A stretch of DNA of 64,000 nt from Bifidobacterium breve. GTDB taxonomy: Bacteria; Actinomycetota; Acidimicrobiia; Acidimicrobiales; Acidimicrobilacustridaceae. A program made the position numbers and the translations under genes. Location: the NCBI GenBank assembly GCA_945860545.1, contig CAMAQM010000007.1, forward strand, positions 18,780-82,779, written 5' to 3'. The notes beneath the pieces are model-generated. The model ran no database searches. It worked only from the letters and a program-made list of their open reading frames with translations, and had not been told where the DNA came from. This document shows, piece by piece, positions 41,504 through 43,728 of the stretch. How positions within the stretch are numbered: position 1 is the first letter of the stretch; every line of letters begins with the position of its first letter.

Positions 41504-42661
41504 TCATGACCTCTTCTTCTTGCGCCCACGAGGCTGAACGGACGGGGCGGGCGGTGCCCCTCGAGATGGTCGCCGAGCCTTGTTCCCTGAGGCTTTCTTC
41601 CCAGAGGGCTTGGTGCCCCCTGACGTCCTCGAGGGTCCACCGGTCCGGGCCTTGGGTGGTCGACCACCTGCGCCTTCAGCACCTGTTGAACCATTTGTTT
41701 CCTTGTCACCCTTGGGTGACCGGCCGCGATTGCGGCTTTTCTGCTTCCCACCGTCACTCGCGGCACTCTCAGTGGTTTCCTCTGCGGTGGTCAGCACAGC
41801 TGCCGCCTTCCCACCGGATTCCCTGGCCCGCTTGGTGTCGATGTCCTCGCCGCGCTGGATGCCGTAGATCTTCCTCGTGATGAACCACTGCTGGCCCACC
41901 CGATACATGTTCGACACCGCGAAGTAGATGATGAGACCGCCAGGGAGCGTGAAGCTGAAGATCGGCAACATGATCGGGAGGATCTTCATGATCATCTGCT
42001 GCTGACTGTTGACCTGCCCCTTGGGGACCCGGCCCTGGATCTGACGCTGCTGCACGAACCCGGTCACGGCGACGACGAGGATGAGCAGGGCGTAGGGAAT
42101 GAACGCCACCACCGACTCGCCAAGGACCTTCTGCGGGGAAGCGGCGAGGTCGATACCAAAAGCCCGCATCTCGTTGGTCTGGGACAACGATCGGTACATG
42201 TCCGTGTCGGGACTCAGGTACGCCGGGTCGAAGTTCCGAAGCCATTCGGGGGGTTTGGAGGGGGAGCCCGTGTCGAATCCGCCTGACACCCAACCCGGGA
42301 AGTAGCCGACTTCGCTGATCCGACGGGTCAGGCCCCGCAGGACGGTGTACAACACGATGAAGACCGGCGCCTGCACCAACAAGGGAAGACAACCACCGAC
42401 GGGGTTGATCTGGTTCTCCCGGTAAACCGCCATCAACTCCTCGTTGAGTTTCTGGCGGTCGTCCTTGTACTGCGCCTGAATCTTGCGGATCTCGGGTTGC
42501 AGTTGCTGCATCATCATCATCGACCGGGTGCCCTTGAGGGTCAACGGAGTGACGATGACCATGACGACGAGGGTCAACAAGACAATGCTGATCCCATAGT
42601 TCGGGATCACCGAGTAGAAAAAGGCCATCAGGGCGGCCATGGCGTCAAATAGCCACTGCAT
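41504..42661 (-). CDS. yidC: Membrane protein insertase YidC with long basic C-terminal tail
   Basis: NYGISIVLLTLVVMVIVTPLTLKGTRSMMMMQQLQPEIRKIQAQYKDDRQKLNEELMAVYRENQINPVGGCLPLLVQAPVFIVLY. Confidence 0.97.
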   Translation of the reverse strand: MQWLFDAMAALMAFFYSVIPNYGISIVLLTLVVMVIVTPLTLKGTRSMMMMQQLQPEIRKIQAQYKDDRQKLNEELMAVYRENQINPVGGCLPLLVQAPVFIVLYTVLRGLTRRISEVGYFPGWVSGGFDTGSPSKPPEWLRNFDPAYLSPDTDMYRSLSQTNEMRAFGIDLAASPQKVLGESVVAFIPYALLILVVAVTGFVQQRQIQGRVPKGQVNSQQQMIMKILPIMLPIFSFTLPGGLIIYFAVSNMYRVGQQWFITRKIYGIQRGEDIDTKRARESGGKAAAVLTTAEETTESAASDGGKQKSRNRGRSPKGDKETNGSTGAEGAGGRPPKARTGGPSRTSGGTKPSGKKASGNKARRPSRGAPPAPSVQPRGRKKKRS

Positions 42662-43005
42662 CAGTGCTTCCCTCCCGGGCTGTGGTGGTGGCAGTCCTCA
42701 CCGTCGTGGGTTGCGACACCGGCTCTAGGGGGAACCGGGTCCCAGCCGGACCCTCCCCATGGATGACACCGACCGATTCTGCGGATCGCCAACCACGACC
42801 CACGGAAGAAACCGCGCTGTTCAAGGGCGTCGAGGGCGTAACTCGAGCACGTCGGAACGTACCGACACGGGGACGGCCGGCCGGCGAACAGCGCCTGGTA
42901 CAGCTTCACCATCCGATGAACCGCCCGGGCCCCAAGTGACATCGGTGGTTGTCCGGTCATCTCGAGCGGGCGCACGTCGGCGGCGGGAGTTGGTCCTTCA
43001 GGCAT
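42661..43005 (-). CDS. yidD: Membrane protein insertion efficiency factor YidD
   Basis: [58 protein letters not shown]. Confidence 0.94.
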
Positions 43006-43378
43006 GGGTCGCCCCTTGAGCGCCAAGCACTCCGAGCGCCCCGTCAAGGGCCTCGCCGAGTTGCATCGCTGACCACTCGCCAGCTGGCGGACGGGCCACG
43101 ACGAGCCAGGCGCCAGACGCCAGGCTGCCGTTGGCGACCCGGTCCCCGAGTAGGGCTCGTAGGCGGCGGCGGACCCGATTGCGCATGACGGCTGGCCCCA
43201 CCGCCCGCGGGATAGCAAAGGCCACTCGAGGTGGTTCTGCCGGCTGATCAAAGCCCGATATCCCTTTGTTTTCAACGTTTTCAGCCAGGTACACGAGCGT
43301 GAGCGGCCCAGAGGAGGCGCGGCGACCACGTCGAGCCAAGGCGGCGAACGTCGCCCGATCGCGGATGTGCCAGATCAG
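42998..43378 (-). CDS. rnpA: Ribonuclease P protein component (non-canonical start; CTG at 43378 proposed)
   Basis: [27 protein letters not shown]...[27 protein letters not shown] (RNR motif); position after rpmH; no ATG/GTG/TTG near the homologous N-terminus. Confidence 0.88.
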
Positions 43379-43509
43379 GCCGATAGTTGGGCACGGCCGC
43401 GCTGGCGCCGGGCACGGAGAATGCGGCGGCCGGCCTTGGTCGACATGCGGTGACGGAACCCGTGACGACGGGCCCGGCGGCGGGTGTTCGGTTGGTAGGT
43501 CCTCTTCAC
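43375..43509 (-). CDS. rpmH: 50S ribosomal protein L34
   Basis: [47 protein letters not shown] start with GGAGG 6 nt upstream. Confidence 0.97.
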
Positions 43510-43728
43510 GAATTGCCTCCTCGTGCAGTGTGCGAGCACGCTGCTGAATCCTTCGGCCGCCAGCCAGCAGGAATCTGGCGCCAGACGAGGCCTCTCCGAC
43601 GGGAGCCAAGCTCCGATCGCAGAGGCGCCCGCGAACCGACTCACGCTAGATGTTGACCGTCCGTCACGGCAACCTGACCGCCGGATCCGGTCGATCCGCG
43701 GCGTCACCGTCACCCGTTGAGACGTCCC

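Follow-up and report, generated by a model that had tools for sequence, protein, structure and literature searches.

The rpmH-rnpA locus

The window, a stretch of 64,000 nucleotides, comes from an assembly that looks metagenomic and comprises 69 contigs with 2.1 Mb in total. The genome probably belongs to the actinobacterial class Acidimicrobiia; one hint is that its class includes a genus with genomes of 1.0-1.1 Mb, like Actinomarina. Its minus strand carries a chain of four genes, rpmH, rnpA, yidD, and yidC (41504-43509), in which all neighboring pairs overlap, by 4, 8, and 1 nt. The first gene, rpmH (43375..43509), encodes ribosomal protein L34 of 44 amino acids, and its product scores 63.8 bits with TIGR01030 and 72 bits with PF00468. 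It starts with GTG at 43509 and ends with TCG GCC TGA. A Shine-Dalgarno-like site of rpmH, AGGAGGCA (43514..43521), was read from the sequence. At the other end of the chain, yidD (42661..43005) starts with ATG at 43005 and shares 8 nt with the end of rnpA (ATGCCTGA), and yidC (41504..42661) starts with ATG at 42661, sharing 1 nt with the yidD stop (TGATG). The rnpA gene (42998..43378) has its TGA stop at 42998 and would encode 126 amino acids from a proposed CTG start at 43378-43376.

The product of rnpA is a bacterial RNase P protein. Started at the CTG, it scores 54.2 bits with PF00825 (cut-off 22.3) and 38.4 bits with TIGR00188, the NCBIfam rnpA equivalog model, which is barely above the cut-off of 38.35. 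An AlphaFold2 model of the 126 amino acids, built from an alignment of 47, has a mean pLDDT of 90.9, with a short strand at residues 3-4 and helix alpha-1 at residues 8-17. All 16 Foldseek matches in the PDB with E <= 0.001 were RNase P proteins, and the RNR motif is present as RNRVRRR. In a profile match, position 3 of RnpA is aligned to residue 8 of the B. subtilis protein. According to the model, the CTG-started protein would begin directly before the folded domain. The RNase P RNA was identified in the same genome as RF00010 (type A), with 219.9 bits and an E of 4e-72.

The sequence-only reading of this DNA had claimed that the homologous N-terminus of RnpA has no ATG, GTG, or TTG start, and direct reading of the letters agrees with this. 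The distant ATG that it placed at 43609 is a TTG. This is the first canonical codon in frame upstream and would give 203 amino acids. The next canonical codon in the rnpA frame is the TTG at 43339 (43337..43339; 113 amino acids), followed by a GTG at 43294 (98 amino acids). The TTG at 43339 is codon 14 of RnpA and is the canonical start closest to the start of the domain; it stands 13 codons inside the conserved RnpA domain and within predicted helix alpha-1. Two unusual starts had also been suggested, and both were found in frame where they had been placed. One is the CTG at 43378, which overlaps the rpmH stop as CTGA (43375..43378) and gives the 126 amino acids. The other is an ATT at 43513 (43511..43513), which follows GAGGAGG immediately, precedes the rpmH GTG by 4 nt, and would give 171 amino acids. 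A scan for other CTGA overlaps in the window gave output that was dominated by spurious ORFs.

Junctions in the family, class, and phylum

RnpA was located with PF00825 in relatives, the family, the order, the class, and the phylum. Among named genomes, one scan gave only a distant Paenibacillus RnpA. The DNA was fetched and the junctions were read by script. The class-level set consisted of 183 junctions with a recognized rpmH. A junction was placed in the overlap frame when the rnpA triplet was formed by the last base of rpmH and the TG or TA of its stop. The rnpA frame is in this 4-nt overlap in 102 of the 183 junctions, a count from related genomes that are not independent of each other. 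The triplet is CTG in 69, TTG in 17, GTG in 12, and NTA in four; ATG was not found among the 102, and NTG amounts to 98. In the window's family (33 genomes), there are 31 CTG overlaps, one TTG (G3), and one junction that does not overlap (G4). The CTG overlap is present in 19 families of the order, with the window's family included, and in nine genomes from other orders of the class. Within seven families, CTG is exchanged for TTG or GTG.

No canonical start was found from -20 to +1 codons of the homologous rnpA start in any of the 69 CTG genomes, whereas 66 of the 81 non-overlap genomes have one. For 27 of the CTG genomes, ATG, GTG, and TTG are absent all the way from the upstream in-frame stop to about codon 11. 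Among family representatives, pairwise identity in the rnpA frame rises from 0.28 in the 20 codons before the CTG to 0.48 in codons 2-11. An indel at the junction had been named as a possible cause. An indel or base error is rejected because the relatives share the CTGA; 30 further genomes of the family have it in the same frame. In the phylum sample outside of the class, CTG was in the overlap frame at the aligned start in one of 50 genomes read (G459), and nearly all but that genome have a nearby ATG, GTG, or TTG. The arrangement had been called unusual for an actinobacterium. This is true of the phylum, but in the window's class it is the commonest state among the overlapping junctions sampled.

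Some junctions are of other types. Three genomes, G41 (L012), G218 (L107), and G194 (L120), have a CTG start beyond the rpmH stop, outside of the rpmH coding region, with an in-frame stop 3 or 4 codons upstream and no canonical rnpA start at these sites. In G218, a short stretch of the junction is repeated ahead of the CTG (TCGGCC TGA TCGGCC CTG). These three genomes speak for CTG as a start of rnpA. Neither a canonical start nor a CTG was found near the homologous start in G4 (L046), G85 (L129), G87 (L138), and G169 (L101), and the class may thus have further start types or sequence errors. At the site, G220 (L128) reads GTA ATC and has neither an NTG nor a canonical start. These five genomes possibly use GTA, ATC, ATA, or ATT starts, or contain assembly errors. 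In family f70, which belongs to another order of the class, the rnpA frame also has no nearby canonical start (L154, L156, L158, L160, and L153). Four genomes of f70 (G334, G374, G383, and G356) have a CTG five bases before the rpmH stop, which is a different overlap geometry.

An NTG at the overlap requires TGA as the rpmH stop. TGA is the stop in 98 of the 102 overlaps and in 40 of the 81 other junctions (P 8e-14). When only N = C is counted and each family contributes a single genome, the counts are 28/29 and 23/40 (P 2e-4). The bias was checked against GC content and persists in three of four GC3 strata. Four exceptions are NTA. Of these, G181 and G354 offer a canonical start a short way downstream, G75 reaches its nearest one, a GTG, only after a few codons, and G220 lacks one. 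L34 ends in an alanine codon whose third base is C in 18 of 19 non-redundant family members, and this base is the least variable fourfold site in the family after the start codon. Selection for a weak start was considered from the depletion of A and G before TGA (10% vs. 34% at internal alanine codons, P 2.5e-6) and was rejected. The depletion is equal in non-overlap TGA genomes (4/32, P 0.75), so codon choice before TGA explains it better. Tolerance of CTG fits the data equally well as selection for CTG as such, since non-overlap genomes share the pyrimidine bias before TGA.

At the DNA level, the comparison of the 183 junctions gives good support to the CTG on the rpmH stop, the first of the two suggested starts. 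Thus far, it appears very probable that rnpA is a gene of normal length that starts at CTG 43378 and overlaps the rpmH stop as CTGA.

Other possible starts of rnpA

RnpA could begin one codon later, at the AUC of NTG ATC, with the CTG being only the end of rpmH. AUC is a near-cognate start known from infC-type genes. Of the 69 CTG genomes, 57 have ATC as their second codon, so AUC initiation is possible in many of them, and G220 has its GTA ATC with no NTG at the site. However, codon 2 is AGC, ACC, ACG, or AAA in nine CTG genomes, and the non-overlapping CTG is followed by CTC in G41 and by GTC in G218. TTG and GTG also occupy the NTG position with the same ATC behind them. A start at AUC would tolerate TAA as the rpmH stop, but TAA makes up 3 of 101 TAA and TGA stops in overlaps vs. 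12 of 52 elsewhere (P 2e-4). This start is considered unlikely. A shortened protein from the TTG at 43339 or the GTG at 43294 is highly improbable, even though both codons are canonical and in frame. Such a protein would lose part or all of predicted helix alpha-1 and of the most conserved N-terminal stretch, its TIGR00188 score falls to 30.8 bits (TTG) or 28.5 bits (GTG), and most relatives have no such codon before codon 11.

The longer proteins would both be read through rpmH. With the ATT at 43513, rnpA would be nested with rpmH as in Thermus, starting next to the rpmH Shine-Dalgarno site and reading rpmH in a second frame. Here the ATT is well spaced after GAGGAGG, and the congener G1 has ATC at this triplet. 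The other 31 family members have no near-cognate start there (CCT, CAA, CCC, TCC, CGA, and others), stops in the rnpA frame are found within rpmH in 22 CTG genomes, and the 171-amino-acid protein scores 37.2 bits, below the 38.35 of the rnpA model. The ATT is judged to be coincidental, and a nested start very improbable. The frame had been reported as open through rpmH. It is open, but this is partly an effect of codon composition and is not special to this locus. The deficit of stops in this frame is equal where rnpA does not overlap rpmH, and codon-level constraint, which had been proposed as a check, showed nothing extra in the rnpA frame inside rpmH when compared with non-overlap genomes. 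The TTG at 43609 was picked as the start by a mechanical ORF finder. It needs the whole of rpmH to be translated out of frame, and in-frame stops block this in many relatives; a 203-amino-acid RnpA is thus extremely unlikely.

Throughout the class, the -1 frame of rpmH contains fewer stops than expected from synonymous shuffling, with or without an overlap. Codon context within rpmH itself seems to be the cause. Hidden coding inside of rpmH was considered as a reason for the deficit and was rejected, as non-overlap genomes have the same deficit.

Proposed initiation at the overlap and its meaning

The CTG on the rpmH stop remains the preferred start of rnpA, and the surroundings of the junction can indicate how it is used. 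Of 96 overlap genomes, 81 have a 5- or 6-base substring of AGGAGG upstream of rpmH. No Shine-Dalgarno site, taken as an AGGAGG substring of at least 4 bases, precedes the rnpA NTG in 93 of the 96. The missing site is suggestive of rnpA translation that depends on translation of rpmH. The Shine-Dalgarno site of rpmH is strong, and rnpA has none of its own. Ribosomes that finish L34 at the TGA probably slip back and reinitiate on the overlapping CTG, and the CUG would then be decoded as Met by the initiator tRNA, which places Met at position 1 of RnpA. The N of the NTG doubles as the third base of the alanine codon (GCN) with which L34 ends. This base is mostly C because GCC is the commonest codon at the terminal alanine, and rnpA appears to tolerate the C. 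The CTGA arrangement is probably old in the class.

In standard bacteria, CTG initiates poorly, which counts against this start. It is speculative that a weak CTG start has the purpose of limiting RnpA relative to L34. A broader proposal can be made, which is tentative and somewhat doubtful. In this proposal, a CUG start has been kept for a long time across the class and works only because it lies on a stop codon. Ribosomes that reinitiate at NUGA would not distinguish the first base of the start in the way that newly initiating ribosomes do, rnpA would drift freely between CUG, UUG, and GUG as the codon usage of L34 dictates, and the output of RnpA would be held low relative to L34.

Spacings of -4 nt with an NTGA stop/start are the commonest between neighboring genes in prokaryotes, and such coupled pairs have been reviewed (PMC12548453). 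Reinitiation is one of the two mechanisms that have been proposed for translational coupling, and neither "CUG" nor "near-cognate" occurs in the text of that review (PMC12548453). Translationally coupled pairs at -4 nt have also been tested (PMC6728339). The rpmH-rnpA junction has the same 4-nt geometry and a downstream gene with no Shine-Dalgarno site of its own. It differs from the coupled pairs in its start, which is a non-standard CTG here and in 68 other genomes; 29 have TTG or GTG. To our knowledge, the recognized NTGA coupled pairs use ATG, GTG, or TTG. Judged by its sequence, rpmH-rnpA may function as an NTGA coupled pair that has a near-cognate start.

In Thermus, rnpA encloses rpmH, and the two AUG codons belong to a single initiation site, AUGGAUG (Feltens et al., 2003, as cited in PMC9841429). 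As far as it is described there, the Thermus arrangement has the same two genes, overlapping and in the same operon order. Unlike in that account, only the last 4 nt of rpmH overlap rnpA here, and the nested frame is unconserved. Neither a conserved start at the ribosome-binding site of rpmH nor a constrained open frame through rpmH, as in the Thermus type, was found. The second of the suggested starts, the Thermus-like ATT, was thus not borne out. In Salmonella, proteoforms started at CUG are alternatives beside annotated starts (PMC11005335). These resemble rnpA and infC in having a start other than ATG, GTG, or TTG, but for rnpA, which is essential, no start other than the CTG is plausible, and this is so in many families. 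A literature search, which covered few subscription papers, found no paper that joins rnpA with "CTG start codon".

Near-cognate starts of infC are AUU, AUC, and AUA. From the in-frame TGA upstream to the conserved VNDRIRAREVRL, the infC of the same genome (L252, on G000:C30) has no ATG, GTG, or TTG. It reads TGA CCG GCC ATA GCA CCG, and it most likely starts at the ATA. Near-cognate starts are therefore probably used elsewhere in this organism.

If the CTG start is correct, gene finders normally leave out the very start codon that an essential and near-universal gene has used in no fewer than 19 families of one order and in several families elsewhere in the class. The expectation that gene callers would lose or truncate rnpA has indirect support, as only the CTG version, of those scored, passes the cut-off of the NCBI rnpA model. 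The N-termini of RnpA would be systematically mis-annotated, or the gene reported as missing, in these genomes, as the borderline TIGR00188 score illustrates. The junction also opens a testable question, whether termination-reinitiation at NUGA relaxes start-codon discrimination. Natural TTG, GTG, and CTG variants of this one junction exist among close relatives.
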